Shown: in pieces, positions 12,764 to 53,596 of the stretch | How positions within the stretch are numbered: position 1 is the first letter of the stretch | Layout: every line of letters starts with the position of its first letter | Source: Bizionia argentinensis JUB59 | Lineage (GTDB): Bacteria; Bacteroidota; Bacteroidia; Flavobacteriales; Flavobacteriaceae | Direction of reading: 5' to 3' | NCBI RefSeq assembly: GCF_000224335.1 | Contig: NZ_AFXZ01000065.1 | Span: forward strand, 1 to 53,596 | DNA: 53,596 nt | Notes under the pieces: model-generated | Seen by the model: only the letters and a program-made list of their open reading frames with translations | Told to the model about the DNA's origin: nothing | Databases searched by the model: none | Translations under genes and position numbers: made by a program

Positions 12764-13936
12764 TTATGGACACATGCCCCATAAAGGTTTATTGTCATTG
12801 GTTAAATTACTTCCTGAAGCAAAATTATTAGGCTCGATGGAAAAATTATCTACACACCAGCCCGTGAGGTCTTGGTTAAATACACTTGCATCGGAAAGCA
12901 TACCTTCCATATCCGTTACACTACTTACGTCCCAGTTGCTAAGGTTTGCATTAAAGGCATAAGCACTAGAAAACATGTAATGCGCATTTGTTACGCTACT
13001 TACGTTCCATGTGCTAACGTCTCCGTTAAACTCCTTGGCAAACCAAAACATGTAACTCATATCCGTTACATTACTCACATCCCAATTATTAAGGTCTTGA
13101 TTAAATATACTATTACCGCCAATATAAGACGTATAAAACATTTGCGCCATGTTCGTTACACTACTCACATTCCAGCTGGATATATCTCCGTTAAAGTAAC
13201 TAGCATCCCTAAACATATAACTCATATCTAATACGTTGCTTACATTCCAATGGCTAAGATTTCCATTAAACATTCTAGCATTGCTAAACATAGATCTCAT
13301 GTTCGTTACGCTACTCACATCCCATAGGTTAATGTCAGAGCTAAATACGCTGGCTCCTCTAAACATGCCCTCCATATTAGTTACGCTTTCCACATCCCAA
13401 TGACTGATATCTCCGTTAAACGTATCTTCGTCTTTAAATAGTTGTGTCATATCAGTAATGCCAGTTGTACACGTTGATTCAGCATTTTGGGGAGTAATTT
13501 GGTCTACCGTACGTTTGGTGTATGTAATACCATTTACCACACCGGTATCTCCCACATTTGCTAAAGGCGCCATAATAGTTACACCGTTATCTGCTAGATA
13601 AAATAAGTCTCTTTCAAACACAGCTGTTATATTTTTAGCAGCATCTACTGTAAGTTGTATAGGATTGTTGGTACCAGTAATATCGCCTTGCCATTCTTTA
13701 AAATGCCAACCTTCAGATGGTGTGGCAGTTAGGTCTATTTGTTGGTCTTTATCAAATTCGCCACTAAGTGGTAACACGGTTCCGCCATCATTTGGTGACG
13801 CGGTAATAGTAACCTGAAAGGATGTGATTTCCGGACTTGTCGGCGCATTATCATTATCACTGCTGCAGCTGGTTAACGCGAAACCTAGAGTTAGTAAAAA
13901 AAATAGGGGTTTGAAATTGATTTGAAGTATTTTCAT
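12764..13936 (-). CDS. BspA-like (DUF285) surface lipoprotein
   Basis: The 390-residue protein has leader MKILQINFKPLFFLLTLGF with lipobox LTSC, then SSDNDN, which fits a Bacteroidetes surface-export signal. Residues about 40-110 form an InlB-B/Flg_new-like beta domain (GGTVLPLSGEFDKDQQIDL ... GWHFKEWQGD). From about 165 there are seven 25-residue DUF285 repeats of the form F-N-G-D-[IL]-S-x-W-[DN]-V-S-S-V-T-x-M-x-x-M-F, with one expanded by an insertion (YTSYIGGNSI), and a closing unit ending WGMCP. Such repeats form LRR-like solenoids used for adhesion or recognition. It is adjacent to a close paralogue (14047-15204). Confidence 0.88.
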   Translation of the reverse strand: MKILQINFKPLFFLLTLGFALTSCSSDNDNAPTSPEITSFQVTITASPNDGGTVLPLSGEFDKDQQIDLTATPSEGWHFKEWQGDITGTNNPIQLTVDAAKNITAVFERDLFYLADNGVTIMAPLANVGDTGVVNGITYTKRTVDQITPQNAESTCTTGITDMTQLFKDEDTFNGDISHWDVESVTNMEGMFRGASVFSSDINLWDVSSVTNMRSMFSNARMFNGNLSHWNVSNVLDMSYMFRDASYFNGDISSWNVSSVTNMAQMFYTSYIGGNSIFNQDLNNWDVSNVTDMSYMFWFAKEFNGDVSTWNVSSVTNAHYMFSSAYAFNANLSNWDVSSVTDMEGMLSDASVFNQDLTGWCVDNFSIEPNNFASGSNLTNDNKPLWGMCP

Positions 13937-14046
13937 GTTTATTGTTTAATTAATTTAAAGCGCTTTTTTTTTGAACTTAATTTATCCGTTTCCATGTATT
14001 AAACAACGTGTAGCTATGCCATGGGTAGTGGATACTGATATGTGTT

Positions 14047-15204
14047 TTATGGACATGTACCCCATATTGGTTTATTGCTACTGCTTAAAGGGCTGCCCGA
14101 GGCAAAATCGTTGGGTTCGGATGTTAGATTTGTCACACACCAACCGCTGATATTTTGGTTAAAGGAAGTCGCATCAGCAAACATGCGTAACATATTCGTA
14201 ACATTACCTACATTCCAATTACTAATATCTCTATTGAAGTTACTAGCCTCATGAAACATAAAATCCATAGCTGTGACGTTGCTCACATTCCAATCAGTAA
14301 TATCGCCATTAAAGGAACTAGCATTAAAAAACATCCATCCGGTATTTGTTACGCTGCTCATATCCCAACTATTCAGGTCTGAATTAAATGAGCTGGCTCC
14401 ATTAAACATAGATCTCATAGTTGTAACATTACTCACGTCCCAATTACTTAAGTCTGCGTTAAAAGCCGCAGCTGCAGCAAATATACCATTCATGACCGTT
14501 ACGCTAGAGACGTCCCAATTACTGAGGTCTGAATTAAAAACCAGTGCATTATTAAATAAAGTGCCCATATTCGTTACGCTGCTTACATCCCAATTGCTCA
14601 AGTCTGCATTGAAGACATCGGTGCTTTGAAACATATTATTCATATTAGTTACGGTACTCACATCCCAATGACTGATATCTCCATTAAAGGTATTGGCGGC
14701 ATTAAATAAGTTACTCATATCTGTGATGCCACTGGTGCAGGTTGTTTCAGCATTTTCGGGTGTTATTTGGTCCACAGTGCGTTTTGTGTATGTAATGCCA
14801 TTTATTACCCCAGTACCTCCCACAGGTGCGTTTGGTGCCATGATGGTTACCCCGTTATCTGCTAAATAAAATAAGTCTCTTTCAAAGACGGCTGTTATAT
14901 TTTTAGTTGCATTTACCGCAAGTTGAATAGGGTTATCGATACCTGTAACATCTCCCTGCCATTCTTTAAATTCCCAGCCTTGCAATGGTGTTGCGGTTAT
15001 GTTTATTACTTGATCTTTTTCAAATTCACCGCTTTGTGGGGATACGGTTCCGCCATTACTTGGGGACGCGTTTATGGAAACCTGATAGGATGTTGGTTCA
15101 GGGATTGTAGGCGAATTATCATCATCGCTGCTACAACTTGTAAAAGCGAATCCAGCTAATACTAAAAACAGCAAAGGCTTAAAATTATTTTGTAAACGTT
15201 TCAT
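14047..15204 (-). CDS. BspA-like (DUF285) surface lipoprotein, paralogue
   Basis: I start it at ATG 15204, which gives leader MKRLQNNFKPLLFLVLAGF with FTSC lipobox and SSDDDN (385 residues); an earlier in-frame start at 15243 would bury the leader. The architecture equals that of the neighbour at 12764-13936: one InlB-B-like domain (GWEFKEWQGDVTG), a DLFYLADNGVTIMAP linker identical to the neighbour's over its whole length, then seven 25-residue DUF285 units and a WGTCP end. The repeats differ more than the linker, so the repeat part evolves faster. A surface-exposed adhesive or binding role is inferred from the family. Confidence 0.88.
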   Translation of the reverse strand: MKRLQNNFKPLLFLVLAGFAFTSCSSDDDNSPTIPEPTSYQVSINASPSNGGTVSPQSGEFEKDQVINITATPLQGWEFKEWQGDVTGIDNPIQLAVNATKNITAVFERDLFYLADNGVTIMAPNAPVGGTGVINGITYTKRTVDQITPENAETTCTSGITDMSNLFNAANTFNGDISHWDVSTVTNMNNMFQSTDVFNADLSNWDVSSVTNMGTLFNNALVFNSDLSNWDVSSVTVMNGIFAAAAAFNADLSNWDVSNVTTMRSMFNGASSFNSDLNSWDMSSVTNTGWMFFNASSFNGDITDWNVSNVTAMDFMFHEASNFNRDISNWNVGNVTNMLRMFADATSFNQNISGWCVTNLTSEPNDFASGSPLSSSNKPIWGTCP

Positions 15205-15235
15205 ATTTATTTTAATATTAATTGTTGAATTAAAA

Positions 15236-15269
15236 TAGGCCATCCCAAATTTATAGTTGAAACGGCCTA
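15236..15269 (-). terminator. Stem-loop after the Fn3/lipocalin-like lipoprotein gene
   Basis: TAGGCC (15236-15241) pairs with GGCCTA (15264-15269) around a 22-base loop, 6 bp past the stop. T-rich sequence follows on the minus strand. Confidence 0.5.
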
Positions 15270-48630: not shown

Positions 48631-48638
48631 TATTTTTG
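48631..48638 (+). promoter_or_regulatory. -7 box of the sensor kinase gene
   Basis: TATTTTTG is a full TAnnTTTG match. It overlaps the alternative TTG start at 48636, so translation must begin at the ATG at 48657. Confidence 0.55.
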
Positions 48639-48656: not shown

Positions 48657-49757
48657 ATGTCGCTATTAATATCAGCTGAAGAAAAGTTAAATGAACGTAT
48701 AAAAGAACTCACCTGTTTATATACCGTTAGCTCCTATATAGCTAATAGTAATTTGGAAGATCTGTATCCGACACTAAAGGCCATAGCTAGAAGTTTGCAA
48801 GGTGCTATTTTGTATTCGGATGAGGCATCGGTTGAAATAAAAGTGGAAGATGCATTATTTGTAGTTGGTCAGAAACCAGTAGATAAAGTCTTTATTATTT
48901 CGGCAATTAAGGCCTTTAATATTCCTATAGGATCGATAAAAGTGGGATATCCTCAAGGTGAATTTACGACTACGAGTTTTTTAGATGAAGAAATACAGTT
49001 ACTACATAAAGTCGCTTCAGAAATTGGTAACTTACTTGAACGCAAGCAAATTATTGAAAAAGAAGCTATTTCTCGTAGACAAGTTGAACGGGCAGATCGA
49101 CTATCTATTTTGGGAGAAATTACAGCTGGTATTGCGCATGAACTCAATACGCCGTTGGCAAATATTTTGGGGTATTCGGAACTGTTAAAAGAACAATTTG
49201 ATACAGATGAAACCGTTTTAAATGATTTAGATAAAATAATGAATAGTGCCATTTACTCACGCGAAGTTGTAAAAAAATTAATGTTTTTCTCCTGTGATAT
49301 GCCACAGCAAATGGAATTAACTAATATTACTCATATTGTAAAAGATGCCATTAGTTTACTAAAACCAAATTTCTCCAAAAAACATATTTCGTGTAAAGTT
49401 CATATTGCTGATGAGTATATACCATTTCGAGTAGATTCTATTCAACTAACGCAAGTTATTTTTAATTTGGTTATTAATGCTATCTATTTTTCACCAGAAA
49501 AAGGTGAAATTAAAGTTACAGTTAGTCAAACTGAAACGCAGATTATTATAGAAATTAGTGATGAAGGCTCTGGAATTGGTCCAGAAAAAGGTGAAAATAT
49601 TTTTAATCCTTTTTTTACAACAAAACCGGTTGGTGAAGGTTCTGGATTGGGTTTAAGTGTTGTTCATGGTATTGTTAAAAGTCATAAAGGAAGCATAATA
49701 CATAGTCCCAACACACCAAAAGGAACTATTTTTACTATTCGCTTTCCAAAAAAATAA
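48657..49757 (+). CDS. Soluble sensor histidine kinase with GAF-like input domain
   Basis: From ATG 48657 the protein has 366 residues and no membrane helix. The first part (LNERIKELTCLYTVSSYIAN, then LYPTLKAIARSLQGAILYSD) is a GAF-like sensor of about 130 residues. HisKA has GEITAGIAHELNTPLANILG (about 160) with the phospho-His, and the ATPase has IFNLVINAIYFSPEKG, SDEGSGIGPEKGENIFNPFF and GEGSGLGLSVVHGIVKSHKG. It resembles NtrB-type kinases. It is followed 3 bp later by its NtrC-type regulator. The signal sensed is intracellular and unknown. Confidence 0.93.
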   Translation: MSLLISAEEKLNERIKELTCLYTVSSYIANSNLEDLYPTLKAIARSLQGAILYSDEASVEIKVEDALFVVGQKPVDKVFIISAIKAFNIPIGSIKVGYPQGEFTTTSFLDEEIQLLHKVASEIGNLLERKQIIEKEAISRRQVERADRLSILGEITAGIAHELNTPLANILGYSELLKEQFDTDETVLNDLDKIMNSAIYSREVVKKLMFFSCDMPQQMELTNITHIVKDAISLLKPNFSKKHISCKVHIADEYIPFRVDSIQLTQVIFNLVINAIYFSPEKGEIKVTVSQTETQIIIEISDEGSGIGPEKGENIFNPFFTTKPVGEGSGLGLSVVHGIVKSHKGSIIHSPNTPKGTIFTIRFPKK

Positions 49758-49760
49758 GTT

Positions 49761-51089
49761 ATGGTATTTAATCGTGAAAATATATTGCTGGTTGATGATG
49801 ATGTTCATATTTTAGAACTGTTGCAACGGCATTTGCAAAGTTTAAATTATCATACATTTAAAGCTGTTTCTGTTAAAGAGGCTATTTCTATTCTAAAAGA
49901 TCAAACGATTGATTTGCTAATAACCGATTTAAAAATGCCAGGAGTTGATGGTCTGGAACTGGTGAAATATGTTTCTGAACATTTCCCATCCATTCCAAAA
50001 TTAGTTGTAACAGGTTATCCTTCAGTTGATGGAGCTTTAGAAGCTATGAAGTCGGGAGCTGTGGAGTATGTCACCAAGCCCTTTACTAAAGAGGAACTTA
50101 AAACGGCTGTGATAAAATCATTGAAACGCAGACCCAAAAGGGTAGCGGAAAAGGTGAGTGAAATAAGAGATGACGATTCCTATGGGGAACTAATAGGCCA
50201 ATCTGAGGCTATAAAAAAAGTAACTGATGTTATAGATCGGGTTAAAAACAATAGGGCTACAGTTTTTATTTCTGGCGAAAGTGGAACAGGGAAGGAGCTT
50301 GTAGCACGATCCATCCATTATATGGGGAAATATGCTACGGCACCTTTTATTGCTGTAAACTGTGGCGGCATACCAGAGTCGCTCTTGGAAGCAGAGTTAT
50401 TTGGTTATACTAAAGGTGCTTTTACGGGTGCTGACGATAATCGGGAAGGATTTTTTCAGGCAGCAAACAAAGGGACTATTTTTTTAGATGAAATTGGTAA
50501 TGCTTCTTTAGCCACACAATCACGATTATTACGTGTACTTCAAGAAAAGGAGGTTATGCGGGTCGGATCGCAAAAAGTAGAATCTATTGATTTACGGGTT
50601 ATTGCAGCAACTAATGTGAACCTAAAAGATTTAATTGCAAAGGGCCGTTTTCGTGAGGATTTATATTATCGCCTAACGGTTGTTGAGGTATCGGTGCCAG
50701 CATTAAAAGAGCGAAAAGAAGATATTGGTTTATTAACTAATAAATTTTTACTAAAATATGGTGTAGAATTTAAGGATAGGTTAATAACAATTTCAAATGA
50801 AGCTCTTAATGTATTAGAACGCTATGATTGGCCTGGAAATATTAGAGAGTTAGAAAACGTTATTCAACGTGCGGTAATAATGTGCGATAAGCAAGTCACG
50901 ATAGCTGATTTACCAGAGCAATTAAAATACAACATTACATTTCCGAAGGAAAATCAATCGCTTTTACCATTAAAGAAAATGGAAAAAAACTATATTTTAA
51001 AAGTATTAAAGGCAACAAATAACAACAAATCTAAAGCAGCAAAAATATTAGAAATTGATAGAAAAACATTAGGAGAAAAAATAAAGTAA
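49761..51089 (+). CDS. NtrC-family sigma-54 activator response regulator
   Basis: The 442-residue protein has a receiver (ILLVDDDVHILELLQRHL; phospho-Asp in LLITDLKMPG near 55; KPF at about 104), an AAA+ domain with Walker A GESGTGKE (about 172), GAFTGADDNREG (about 217), Walker B GTIFLDEIGN (about 240), the sensor RELENVIQRA, and a C-terminal Fis-type HTH (NNKSKAAKILEIDRKTLGEK). GAFTGA means it contacts sigma-54 RNA polymerase. It starts 3 bp after the kinase and precedes a palindrome and sigma-54 promoter that it very likely controls. Confidence 0.95.
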   Translation: MVFNRENILLVDDDVHILELLQRHLQSLNYHTFKAVSVKEAISILKDQTIDLLITDLKMPGVDGLELVKYVSEHFPSIPKLVVTGYPSVDGALEAMKSGAVEYVTKPFTKEELKTAVIKSLKRRPKRVAEKVSEIRDDDSYGELIGQSEAIKKVTDVIDRVKNNRATVFISGESGTGKELVARSIHYMGKYATAPFIAVNCGGIPESLLEAELFGYTKGAFTGADDNREGFFQAANKGTIFLDEIGNASLATQSRLLRVLQEKEVMRVGSQKVESIDLRVIAATNVNLKDLIAKGRFREDLYYRLTVVEVSVPALKERKEDIGLLTNKFLLKYGVEFKDRLITISNEALNVLERYDWPGNIRELENVIQRAVIMCDKQVTIADLPEQLKYNITFPKENQSLLPLKKMEKNYILKVLKATNNNKSKAAKILEIDRKTLGEKIK

Positions 51090-51104
51090 AACTTATTATT
51101 GTGG

Positions 51105-51131
51105 GTAATTATTACGCAGTTGTGTAATTAC
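51105..51131. promoter_or_regulatory. Palindromic enhancer candidate for the NtrC-type activator
   Basis: GTAATTA (51105-51111) and TAATTAC (51125-51131) form outer arms, and ATTACGCA/TGTGTAAT (51111-51118, 51121-51128) an inner, shifted palindrome with one mismatch. It lies about 95-120 bp upstream of the sigma-54 -24 box, the usual place for an activator site. Confidence 0.5.
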
Positions 51132-51222
51132 ACCACAAATGTAAAACTTATCCTAATAAATAATAAATATCAAATAGCGTAATTTGAGGTGATTAACAAC
51201 GGTTTAACTTGTGTTATCTAAC

Positions 51223-51238
51223 TTGGCATAGAGGTTGC
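51223..51238 (+). promoter_or_regulatory. Sigma-54 promoter of the Cys4-gdh operon
   Basis: TTGGCAT-AGAGG-TTGC has the -24 GG (51225-51226) and -12 GC (51237-51238) with exactly ten bases between. Transcription should start near 51250, about 20 bp before the gene at 51272. Confidence 0.75.
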
Positions 51239-51271
51239 GCTTAAATAGATAGATGAAATTGAAAATAATCT

Positions 51272-51469
51272 ATGAGTCAATTTTTGGAAAATAGTTTGTG
51301 TCAAGATTGCAAGTTTATAGACACCTGTATTTTAACCGCAGATAAAAATTTTATATGGTCGTGTAGCGAATATGAAATTGTTGCGCAAAACCATGCAAAC
51401 ACGGAGTCCCAACGAAAAGTACGGAAAAGCGATTTTAAATCGAAAAAACGTGTCTTTGAACTTATTTAA
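51272..51469 (+). CDS. Small four-cysteine protein, first gene of the sigma-54 operon
   Basis: The 65-residue protein has Cys at 10, 13, 19 and 31 in the spacing CX2CX5CX11C, a pattern able to hold Zn or a [4Fe-4S] cluster; CQDCKFIDTC resembles cluster-binding tails of SPASM-type proteins. The C-terminal half is basic (RKVRKSDFKSKKRVFELI). No signal peptide. It is the first gene after a strong sigma-54 promoter and 11 bp ahead of glutamate dehydrogenase. I do not recognise a family; a small redox or metal-linked regulator is conceivable. Confidence 0.65.
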   Translation: MSQFLENSLCQDCKFIDTCILTADKNFIWSCSEYEIVAQNHANTESQRKVRKSDFKSKKRVFELI

Positions 51470-51480
51470 ACAAAAAAAAT

Positions 51481-52776
51481 ATGACAGTAACAAAAGAAGC
51501 AAAAAAGAAAAAGCAGCCTAAACAGGGGATGTTACAGAATGTTATGAAGCAATTCGACGCTGCAGCAGATATGGTTGGCTTAAATCCAAACATTAAAAAA
51601 ATATTAGCTGTAACGAATAATGAGTTAATTATTCACTTTCCAGTCCGAATGGACAACGGAGAAGTTGAAATTTTTAAGGGTTACCGAGTGCAACATAATA
51701 ATGCATTAGGTCCTTACAAAGGTGGTTTACGTTACCATCCTACTATTGACATTGATTCGGTGAAAGCTTTAGCAATGTGGATGACTTGGAAAACATCATT
51801 AGCAGGTTTACCTTATGGTGGTGCTAAAGGAGGTATTCAAATGGATCCTACAAAATATTCTAATTCTGAATTGGAGCGCATTACAAGACGTTTTACTTAT
51901 GCTTTAGGTGATAACATTGGGCCAGAACATGATATTCCTGCGCCAGATGTCAATACAACGGCACAAACGATGGCTTGGATTGCAGATACTTATATGTCTA
52001 CAAAAGCACCATCGGAACGTTCTAAAAATCAGCACGTAGTGACAGGTAAGCCAGTTGGTTCTGGTGGATTAGAAGGTCGTGATAGAGCAACAGGATTTGG
52101 TGTTTATTTAACCATTAAATATTGGGCTGAAAGTAAAGAAATACACTTGTCAGATAAAAAGTTTATTGTTCAAGGTTTTGGAAATGTTGGCTATTGGGCT
52201 GCACACTTTTTAGAATTAGAAGGAGCTAAAATGGTTGGTGTTCAAGACGCATTTGGAACAATTAGCAATGCGGATGGTTTAGGTGTTGCAGACTTATTCG
52301 AATACGCAAAAAACAATCATGGTTCAGTTGTCGGATTCGCAGGATCTGCTGTAGTTGAGAAAGAGGACTTTTTCGCATTAGATTGTGATATCTGTATTCC
52401 GGCTGCTTTAGGAAACCAAATTACTGAAGAAAATGCTTCTAAAATTAAAGCATTTTTAATTGCTGAAGGAGCTAACGGCCCAACAACAGTAGAAGCTGAA
52501 AAAATACTACTAGAGAGAGGTATCAATATTATTCCAGATATCTTATGTAATTCTGGTGGTGTTATTGGTAGTTACTTTGAGTGGTTACAAAACCGTAATG
52601 GCGAGCTTTGGGAGTTAGACGAAATTATGGCTAAAATAGATAAAAAGATCAAAGAAGTTTTTAAAAGAGTTTTAAAAACATCGGAAGAAAAGCAAATAGA
52701 TATGCGTTCGGCTGCTTACTTTATAGCTATCGAACGAATTGAAAGAGCTTATATTCAACGTGGAATTTTCCCATAA
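51481..52776 (+). CDS. gdhA: Glutamate dehydrogenase (Glu/Leu/Phe/Val family)
   Basis: The 431-residue enzyme interconverts glutamate and 2-oxoglutarate plus ammonium. The N-terminal domain has RVQHNNALGPYKGGLRYHPT (about 61-80) and GLPYGGAKGGIQMDP (about 107-121), with the catalytic Lys in PYGGAKGG and Asp in PAPDVNT. The Rossmann domain has FIVQGFGNVGYWAAHFL (about 225). Ends IAIERIERAYIQRGIF. The length is that of the 420-residue catabolic or dual-type enzyme. It is under a sigma-54 promoter beside an NtrC-type system, so it may answer to nitrogen status. Confidence 0.95.
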   Translation: MTVTKEAKKKKQPKQGMLQNVMKQFDAAADMVGLNPNIKKILAVTNNELIIHFPVRMDNGEVEIFKGYRVQHNNALGPYKGGLRYHPTIDIDSVKALAMWMTWKTSLAGLPYGGAKGGIQMDPTKYSNSELERITRRFTYALGDNIGPEHDIPAPDVNTTAQTMAWIADTYMSTKAPSERSKNQHVVTGKPVGSGGLEGRDRATGFGVYLTIKYWAESKEIHLSDKKFIVQGFGNVGYWAAHFLELEGAKMVGVQDAFGTISNADGLGVADLFEYAKNNHGSVVGFAGSAVVEKEDFFALDCDICIPAALGNQITEENASKIKAFLIAEGANGPTTVEAEKILLERGINIIPDILCNSGGVIGSYFEWLQNRNGELWELDEIMAKIDKKIKEVFKRVLKTSEEKQIDMRSAAYFIAIERIERAYIQRGIFP

Positions 52777-52793
52777 ATAAATATTTATGTAAA

Positions 52794-53207
52794 ATGAAAT
52801 ACGGGAGCTTGATATTTGAAAAAAAAGAGTATGTTGCTTTAAAGAGTCTTTTAAATTTATCTAAAAATTTAAAAGAAGATACACGTAAATACTCTGTCAA
52901 AAGACTTGAAGCTGAATTGCAGAAAGCTTTAATAGATGATGAAGAACTTGTTCCTCATGATGTTATTAGATTCAACTCTGTAATAACTGTAGCAACGGAT
53001 GATGGTTGGGAAAACACTTTTGAACTGGTTATGCCCAATGATAAAAATCATCAAAACAATAAGGTTTCAGTTTTAACTCCAATGGGATCTGCTGTTATGG
53101 GTTATGCCCAAAATGATGTAATAGACTGGGAGTTTCCTGGAGGAATCAAAAAGCTACGTATTATTAGTGTAGTACAAAATAAATCGAACAAACAATATCA
53201 ATTATAA
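52794..53207 (+). CDS. Rnk/GreA C-terminal-like protein
   Basis: The 137-residue protein has a short helical N-terminus and then the FKBP-like C-terminal domain of GreA/GreB: DVIRFNSVITVATDDG (about 60-75), TFELVMPND, KVSVLTPMGSAVMGYAQNDV (about 95-114) and PGGIKKLRIISV. This matches Rnk (nucleoside diphosphate kinase regulator) and other GreA/B C-terminal paralogues that bind RNA polymerase but lack the cleavage coiled coil; here the first 45 residues are too short for a full coiled coil. It follows gdhA by 17 bp. Confidence 0.8.
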   Translation: MKYGSLIFEKKEYVALKSLLNLSKNLKEDTRKYSVKRLEAELQKALIDDEELVPHDVIRFNSVITVATDDGWENTFELVMPNDKNHQNNKVSVLTPMGSAVMGYAQNDVIDWEFPGGIKKLRIISVVQNKSNKQYQL

Positions 53208-53584
53208 TGGAATCAAAACCTTTTTTTAATCATAATACGGATGAAGAAATCATTCTTGCCAAGCGAACACAAGAGCTTGATGTATGGATTTCTCATTTAA
53301 CTTATGTTACGGACGAAAGTGATTGGCTAGCTCAAATAGCTTCAAAGAAACTAAATGATGAAACGTTAAAAGATGAATTGTTAGAGAAATCCGAACAAAA
53401 TACAATTATCATCAATGAATTGTACACATATAGAGGCTCAATTGAAAACTACAATGAATGTGATAATTTAGAATGTGACATTTATTATGTTAATCTACAT
53501 GATACTTTTTGTTCAAAATATGTGAAACATTTAGAGGCATATCGAAATCTTAAAAATGAGCTTTATAAAAAGTTATTAAATTAG
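53207..53584 (+). CDS. Acidic hypothetical protein, last gene of the operon
   Basis: The 125-residue protein overlaps the stop of the Rnk-like gene by one base (TAATG), so they are translationally coupled. It is acidic, mostly helical and has three Cys in NECDNLECDIY and DTFCSKY. The first half (DVWISHLTYVTDESDWLAQI, then LKDELLEKSEQNTIIINELY) looks like two helices of a coiled coil. No family is recognised. Coupling and position suggest a partner of the Rnk-like protein. Confidence 0.65.
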   Translation: MESKPFFNHNTDEEIILAKRTQELDVWISHLTYVTDESDWLAQIASKKLNDETLKDELLEKSEQNTIIINELYTYRGSIENYNECDNLECDIYYVNLHDTFCSKYVKHLEAYRNLKNELYKKLLN

Positions 53585-53596
53585 TAATTTTCTATA

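Follow-up and report, generated by a model that had tools for sequence, protein, structure and literature searches.

The locus considered here closes the contig NZ_AFXZ01000065.1 of Bizionia argentinensis JUB59, where a kinase-regulator gene pair of the NtrC type is followed by a glutamate dehydrogenase (GDH) operon, and the question it raises is whether the pair controls that operon through a sigma-54 promoter. The window analysed, meaning the whole stretch of 53,596 nucleotides, is the entire contig, ending at 53596, of a 3.28-Mb genome. An earlier note, made from the letters alone, had read the locus as an NtrC/sigma-54 circuit; the observation is confirmed as real, and that interpretation is largely supported by comparison with related genomes. 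A dedicated two-component sigma-54 circuit probably drives an operon encoding a Cys4 protein, GDH, a Rnk-like protein, and an acidic protein termed HYP (probability about 0.85). The open reading frames (ORFs) and the gene order given by the note are borne out by the ORF list and a Pfam search, with a 182-bp gap separating the regulator gene from the Cys4 gene and the four operon genes following on the same strand. The features are as follows.

48631..48638, + strand: TAnnTTTG-type motif TATTTTTG, upstream of the kinase start and overlapping the listed TTG (motif scan)
48657..49757, + strand: soluble histidine kinase with an N-terminal GAF-like sensor region, HisKA, and HATPase_c (Pfam, alignment, model)
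49761..51089, + strand: NtrC-type response regulator with a receiver, an AAA+ sigma-54 activation domain with GAFTGA, and a Fis-type helix-turn-helix (HTH) domain (Pfam, ortholog alignment)
51103..51117, + strand: predicted distal enhancer site GGGTAATTATTACGC (site comparison across loci)
51122..51136, + strand: predicted proximal enhancer site GTGTAATTACACCAC, starting 102 bp upstream of the -24 element (site comparison)
51224..51239, + strand: predicted -24/-12 sigma-54 promoter element TGGCATAGAGGTTGCG (conservation across loci)
51272..51469, + strand: Cys4 small protein, 65 aa, C-x2-C-x5-C-x11-C-x-E-Y (motif also in relatives)
51481..52776, + strand: GDH (Pfam, NCBIfam, closest solved sequence)
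52794..53207, + strand: Rnk-like protein with a GreA/GreB C-terminal domain (Pfam, NCBIfam)
53207..53584, + strand: HYP, acidic, 125 aa, modelled as a three-helix bundle, its start overlapping the Rnk-like stop (ORFs, model)

Promoter element and paired sites in related genomes

Orthologs of the regulator (at least 51% identity) occur in 25 of the 149 genomes compared, including that of B. argentinensis, and represent 21 genera; the listed paralogs, among which the other sigma-54 activators of the own genome were placed, reach at most 44%. Five of the 25 cognate loci belong to one genus, and the DNA compared consists of 13-kb stretches around the 24 other orthologs together with the end of the own contig. 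The kinase gene lies directly upstream of the regulator gene in 25/25 loci and GDH lies within the locus in 22/25 (not in L059, L060, and L063). In these 22, a Rnk-like gene is adjacent to GDH in 21, HYP comes next in 18, and Cys4 stands upstream of GDH in 18.

Sigma-54 recognizes the consensus TGGCACG-N4-TTGCW, which TGGCATAGAGGTTGCG fits, and the -24/-12 element reported in the earlier note is present where it had been placed, with TGGCATAGAGGTTGCG starting at 51224, GG at 51225-51226, and GC at 51237-51238. A lone element of this kind is not significant, because TGGCAYN5TTGC has 7 strict matches in the own genome and 11 in the reversed control, which tells against the proposed circuit and is the point in favor of a rival explanation, in which the housekeeping sigma factor accounts for most transcription of the operon and the -24/-12 element matches by chance or plays a minor part. 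It is the position of the element across orthologs, not the element alone, that carries significance in this comparison. Of the 25 regulator loci, 22 have an element of at least 18.5 out of 23.5 upstream of the operon, and the element's mean pairwise identity over 17 genera is 0.665 (shuffled 0.258), against 0.354 (shuffled 0.307) in the adjoining 84-bp spacer and 0.355 (shuffled 0.261) in the site region. The earlier note had named a TAnnTTTG promoter as what would contradict its reading, and strict TAnnTTTG is absent from 51087-51275; both this absence and the excess identity of the element argue against the housekeeping explanation, which is considered very improbable. Likewise, the GG-N10-GC element and the same gene order, for which the note had asked that relatives be searched, are kept in them. 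The rpoN gene is found in 147/149 genomes (144 above the cut-off) and is single copy in the own genome. A kept TGGCAC-N5-TTGC-type element combined with rpoN makes this a predicted sigma-54-dependent promoter, from which transcription would start near 51250 if the usual spacing applies.

Upstream of the element, the palindrome of the earlier note is present, while its extent (51105-51131) is replaced by two tandem imperfect palindromes at 51103-51117 and 51122-51136, which follow the form GGGTAAwwwTTACCC. Spacing was analysed in 30 loci, comprising the 25 cognate loci, a GDH operon in genome G016, a ferritin-like gene in genome G078, and three loci from a phylum-wide search; loci L376-L379 and L380-L382 stand outside this analysis, and the paralog loci L067-L069 served as controls and enter no count. 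In 28/30 loci the two members of the best site pair lie 19 or 20 bp apart, and the nearer site begins 101-107 bp upstream of the element in 25/30 (shuffles 35/600), with the observed pair score reached by 0/600 shuffles. The distance of the sites to the regulator stop codon, by comparison, varies from -9 to 1337 bp; in L051 and L053, 0.9-1.3 kb with other ORFs separates the regulator from the sites, while sites and element remain together. The sites therefore travel with the promoter, and the length of the spacer is kept more than its letters, because its identity is near that of shuffled sequence and the enhancer distance is near-fixed. Tandem sites in this arrangement fit an NtrC-type activator and are listed as predicted enhancer sites.

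The palindromes could alternatively belong to a terminator of the kinase-regulator transcript or be sites of another factor, as is suggested by a nearer site that starts 22-36 bp after the regulator stop codon in 22/28 loci and by hairpins between sites and promoter in 13/30. Against this stand the near-fixed promoter distance combined with the variable stop-codon distance, and a site found upstream of the GDH genes of G016 and of a ferritin-like gene in G078, each away from the regulator gene; moreover, the sites are absent at the GDH genes of genomes lacking the regulator. We regard this alternative as highly unlikely. Hairpins of at least 7 pairs occur between enhancer and promoter in L051, L056, L059, and L060, as if terminating the kinase-regulator transcript.

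Regulator and target are co-inherited. GDH of this type (at least 66% identity) occurs in 26/149 genomes, 23 with the regulator and three without (G046, G058, and G085), so that both are present in 23, the regulator alone in 2, GDH alone in 3, and neither in 121 (Fisher p 1.2e-21; when counted per genus, 19, 2, 3, and 95, with p 6e-17). At the three GDH loci without the regulator the module is absent (best element 13.5-15.5, best pair 14-16.5), whereas the 25 cognate loci have an element of at least 17 and a pair of at least 18. In the two genomes with the regulator but without GDH (G007 and G089), the Rnk-like gene remains in the operon together with a HYP paralog and a gene of the Usp cluster. 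HYP matches at E<=1e-29 are found in 22/25 regulator genomes and 0/124 others, a threshold set after seeing the list; at E<=1e-5 they are found in 31/149 genomes, 22 with the regulator and 9 without. Locus L390, from one of these nine genomes (G019), holds, at about 2359-2947, an apparent kinase-sensor remnant beside a HYP remnant (judged by eye), as if the circuit had been lost en bloc. Among the congeners searched, only G005 yielded no match to the regulator, GDH, and HYP; with an assembly of 170 contigs and 88% completeness, loss and gap are indistinguishable there.

A phylum sample of 395 genomes contains eight besides the own genome with regulator orthologs (54-68% identity), one of which (G006) was already known. 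Loci L373-L375, not used to derive the spacing, have sites at -103 to -105 and -122 to -124, and L373 and L374 retain GDH. In L376-L379, from four species of one genus (g120), the kinase-regulator pair is present and the element lies 106-108 bp 3' of the regulator stop. Neither sites nor element were found in L380-L382, where the regulators have 45-46% identity.

A number of observations weigh against the circuit as proposed. Weak elements (score 17-18) occur in L061, L063, and L065, and in 200 shuffles an equally good element came up 19 times for L061 and 32 times for L065. L047, L050, L064, L066, and L248 have no C in the -12 GC. The element was taken as the best match in a stretch of about 240 bp, which was placed by hand for L049, L051, L053, and L058. 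The nearer site is shifted in L058 (-116), L063 (-117), and L066 (-94), and the joint score prefers -84 in L064 and -83 in L248, each with a single good site, at -104 and -103, respectively. The regulator stands without this GDH in two genomes and the GDH without the regulator in three; a further six genomes, whose GDH has 41-43% identity, lie within the threshold of E<=1e-60 and are not included in the co-occurrence figures. In g120, the sites are weak and nearer (about -81 and, in three of four, about -100), and L376-L379 carry two genes with AraC-like-looking C-termini (by eye, no family search) as apparent targets, not the GDH operon. An unlinked HYP-Usp pair in G006 was found without the module.

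Proteins of the kinase-regulator pair and the operon

For the kinase, ATG 48657 is a more probable start than TTG 48636 of the ORF list; the latter is doubted because the TATTTTTG motif at 48631-48638 overlaps it and an alignment of 23 sequences favors the ATG. The motif would be compatible with transcription of the kinase and regulator genes by the housekeeping sigma factor; a TAnnTTTG-type motif lies at most 70 bp from the kinase start in 7/20 loci examined and is poorly conserved. The kinase has HisKA and HATPase_c matches in Pfam and a top 19-residue hydropathy of 1.56. Its sensor region had no match in the Pfam search, gave a weak profile match to Nlh1 (E 0.003, 41 positions), and is modelled as a confident mixed helix-sheet domain in a structure with a predicted local distance difference test (pLDDT) score of 89, so that the GAF-like label is reasonable, not proven.

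The regulator contains the Pfam domains Response_reg, Sigma54_activat, and HTH_8 of an NtrC-type activator, and the GAFTGA of the earlier note is indeed present (KGAFTGADD). Across 19 of the 25 orthologs aligned, D12, D13, D56, K106, GESGTGK, G219, and F221-A224 are invariant, with A220 replaced by S in one; the phosphorylation site, Walker A, and GAFTGA are retained. The protein scores 396 bits against NCBIfam ntrC (TIGR01818; cut-off 558.6), 398.8 against AtoC (cut-off 714), and 381.7 against ZraR (cut-off 760), and lies under the cut-offs of all 25 NCBIfam models listed.

Among the operon products, neither Cys4 nor HYP matches a family in Pfam or NCBIfam at E 0.01. The Cys4 motif is present twice within one small protein at about 5550-5800 of L066. 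GDH has both Glu/Leu/Phe/Val dehydrogenase domains above the cut-off (PF00208, 232 bits; PF02812, 193.7 bits). Its naming as gdhA in the earlier note does not stand, for it falls outside the GdhA class (PRK09414, NADP-specific, 260.4 vs cut-off 536), and it is also under the cut-offs of the other five NCBIfam models listed. The nearest solved sequence is 1b3b, there named just glutamate dehydrogenase, which we take to be the Thermotoga enzyme. The Rnk-like protein has the GreA/GreB domain (PF01272, 64.3 bits, cut-off 26.9) and remains below the Rnk family itself (PRK05753, 80.7 vs cut-off 109); its best solved relatives are 2pn0 and Rnk 3bmb. HYP, which had been described as an acidic coiled-coil protein, is acidic (isoelectric point 4.8) and its gene does overlap the Rnk-like gene; the structure model gives it a three-helix bundle with pLDDT 90. 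A HYP paralog stands beside or replaces HYP in eight loci, in seven of which a Usp-cluster gene follows; one Usp-cluster gene was confirmed as Usp by Pfam. In L391-L396, distant HYP relatives adjoin a metallo-beta-lactamase-like protein or a lipoprotein, without the enhancer-promoter module, and some of these loci also have Usp-like and small heat-shock-like proteins (names by eye). Elsewhere in the window, at 12764-15243, two adjacent lipoprotein-like ORFs contain many 'FNxDISxWDVSxVTxM'-like repeats.

Targets, mechanism, and role

Further targets were sought with a gapped site and element pattern in 26 genomes, which gave 17 matches against 9 in the reversed control. These comprise 9 cognate loci, the GDH operon of G016 (G016:C20), G078:C1:1156769, and 6 others; among the latter, the three inspected (G032:C3, G078:C1:406502, and G081:C3) have no module, and G078:C1:1087503, G016:C16:80503, and G095:C12 were left uninspected. 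The pattern held the distance between site and element to within 29 bp, and loci L248 and L252, found in this way, are for that reason not independent support for the spacing. The G016 match lies upstream of a Cys4-GDH-Rnk-like-HYP-Usp operon on a different contig from the regulator and has one good site at -103; as a possible target in trans it is suggestive only, because the element is weak (AGGCATGCACTTTGTT, 17.0), a good second site is absent, and the element lies 280 bp upstream of Cys4, all of which again counts against the proposed control. L252 (G078:C1:1156769-1156904) has a ferritin-like gene (Pfam Ferritin), a possible second target, preceded by an element of 19.0 with two sites, one at -122 and one at -103.

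The plain 15-base motif, with one mismatch allowed, gave 132 matches in five genomes against 177 in the control, that is, no genome-wide enrichment. When 107 loci were scanned (G043:C15:35083 being left out), a good site with a well-placed element (at least 17) was found in G043, G080, and G089 at their cognate loci, in G016 at the GDH operon, and in G078 at the ferritin-like gene; in L292, L339, L348, L361, and L362, the score passes and the partner site is absent. Absence of motif enrichment and of any further target with the same geometry in the five genomes makes the circuit narrow as far as tested. In the own genome, the 16-base site pattern occurs without mismatch only in the 51103-51136 region, and the other places listed, with at most 2 mismatches, have no suitably spaced sigma-54 element. 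The circuit's description as self-contained is thus upheld by a sole exact match, with the caveat that the 16-base pattern was modelled on the same site. HYP elsewhere is no marker of targets, as L389-L396 are without the module.

The gene order, the promoter element, the paired sites, their near-fixed spacing, and the co-inheritance of regulator and target are shown by this comparison; phosphorylation, binding, looping, the start site, and a single transcript are inferred from what NtrC-type activators are known to do. By that analogy, the soluble kinase would sense a soluble cue through its GAF-like region and phosphorylate the regulator, which would assemble on the paired palindromes, some 104 and 123 bp upstream of the -24 element, and reach, through a loop of about ten helical turns, the sigma-54 RNA polymerase poised at 51224-51239. 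Its ATPase would then open the promoter, and Cys4, GDH, the Rnk-like protein, and HYP would be made together from the start near 51250. GDH may turn glutamate into 2-oxoglutarate and reduced cofactor, and the cell may be readied for slow growth by the Rnk-like protein, joined in relatives by Usp and ferritin-like proteins.

The signal and purpose of the circuit are more tentative than its architecture. A nutrient or redox down-shift seems the most likely signal, and starvation or redox adjustment is suggested because Usp, ferritin-like, Rnk-like, and transhydrogenase genes accompany the operon in relatives; this stress or redox role is read from gene company alone, which is a further point against it. 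The link to nitrogen or carbon state offered in the earlier note does not hold as stated, and a nitrogen role is unproven. A nitrogen-status regulator standing in for NtrBC would agree with GDH as the most frequent target and with the 396 bits of the regulator against ntrC. That score is under the ntrC cut-off and matched by the one against AtoC, and the Usp, ferritin-like, Rnk-like, and transhydrogenase genes are judged untypical of nitrogen-assimilation company; this explanation appears unlikely.

A catabolic switch like RocR-rocG of Bacillus subtilis, on with amino acids as the carbon source and with GDH in a presumed deaminating direction, is possible and rather doubtful. RocR is not known as a two-component regulator, and the present regulator is missing from three genomes that retain GDH. 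Such a switch would agree with the transhydrogenase genes that accompany GDH in L049, L066, and, by eye, L249, and control of rocG by SigL and RocR is established (PMC4348106). Under the circuit preferred here, it is conceivable, though improbable as a whole, that a survival circuit of one family (probably Flavobacteriaceae), run by a single kinase-regulator pair with its enhancer at a near-fixed ten or so helical turns from the promoter, couples glutamate and redox metabolism to an alteration of RNA polymerase by the Rnk-like protein, which would act together with HYP as a new helical protein; some genera would have added Usp, ferritin-like, and transhydrogenase genes to it.

Comparison with known systems

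To our knowledge, few sigma-54 activators of Bacteroidota have been matched to targets, and the kinase-regulator-GDH circuit was not found described in the open-licence papers searched. The comparison yields regulator, likely binding sites, promoter, and targets together, making each step directly testable, and HYP and Cys4, families without annotation, gain a testable context. A near-fixed enhancer distance over a spacer of almost random sequence would also be an unusual natural constraint on DNA looping.

The circuit resembles those of the NtrC family (NtrC, AtoC, and ZraR) in its receiver, GAFTGA AAA+ domain, Fis-type HTH, and tandem palindromes about 100 bp before a -24/-12 promoter. It differs from them in a regulator under the NCBIfam cut-offs, a GAF-like sensor region in the kinase, a main target that is apparently single, and a site-promoter distance almost fixed across genera. 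The Rnk-like protein shares the GreA/GreB C-terminal domain with the Rnk/GreA family, and differs in scoring below the Rnk cut-off and in lying in an operon with GDH and HYP. The RocR system is not known to have a kinase. Like the present circuit, RocR/SigL-rocG of Bacillus subtilis combines an activator with sigma-54-type control of a GDH gene (PMC4348106); unlike it, that system belongs to another phylum and has its enhancer downstream of the GDH gene, as stated in the title of reference 20 of that paper (PMC4348106).

The remark that sigma-54 promoters next to their own activator and a stress-type RNA polymerase factor are not commonly described in Bacteroidetes does not hold as stated, as -24/-12 promoters have been mapped in Flavobacterium psychrophilum, one of them tested by mutation (PMC9723704). 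That regulon is comparable in its mapped promoters, in three PF00158 proteins, and in belonging to a probable relative of the source organism. It differs in covering chaperones, protein quality control, gliding, and envelope genes, and 'glutamate dehydrogenase' is absent from the main text of that paper (PMC9723704). In computed sigma-54 regulons, GDH (COG0334) is a target in Bacillota and UspA (COG0589) in Planctomycetia, and a tie between GDH and sigma-54 in Bacteroidota was not met in the part of that source consulted (PMC12316311). The parts are thus of known kinds, with sigma-54 control in Flavobacterium and GDH under sigma-54 in Bacillota known already; if the survival circuit were true, it would do part of what RpoS or the stringent response does elsewhere.

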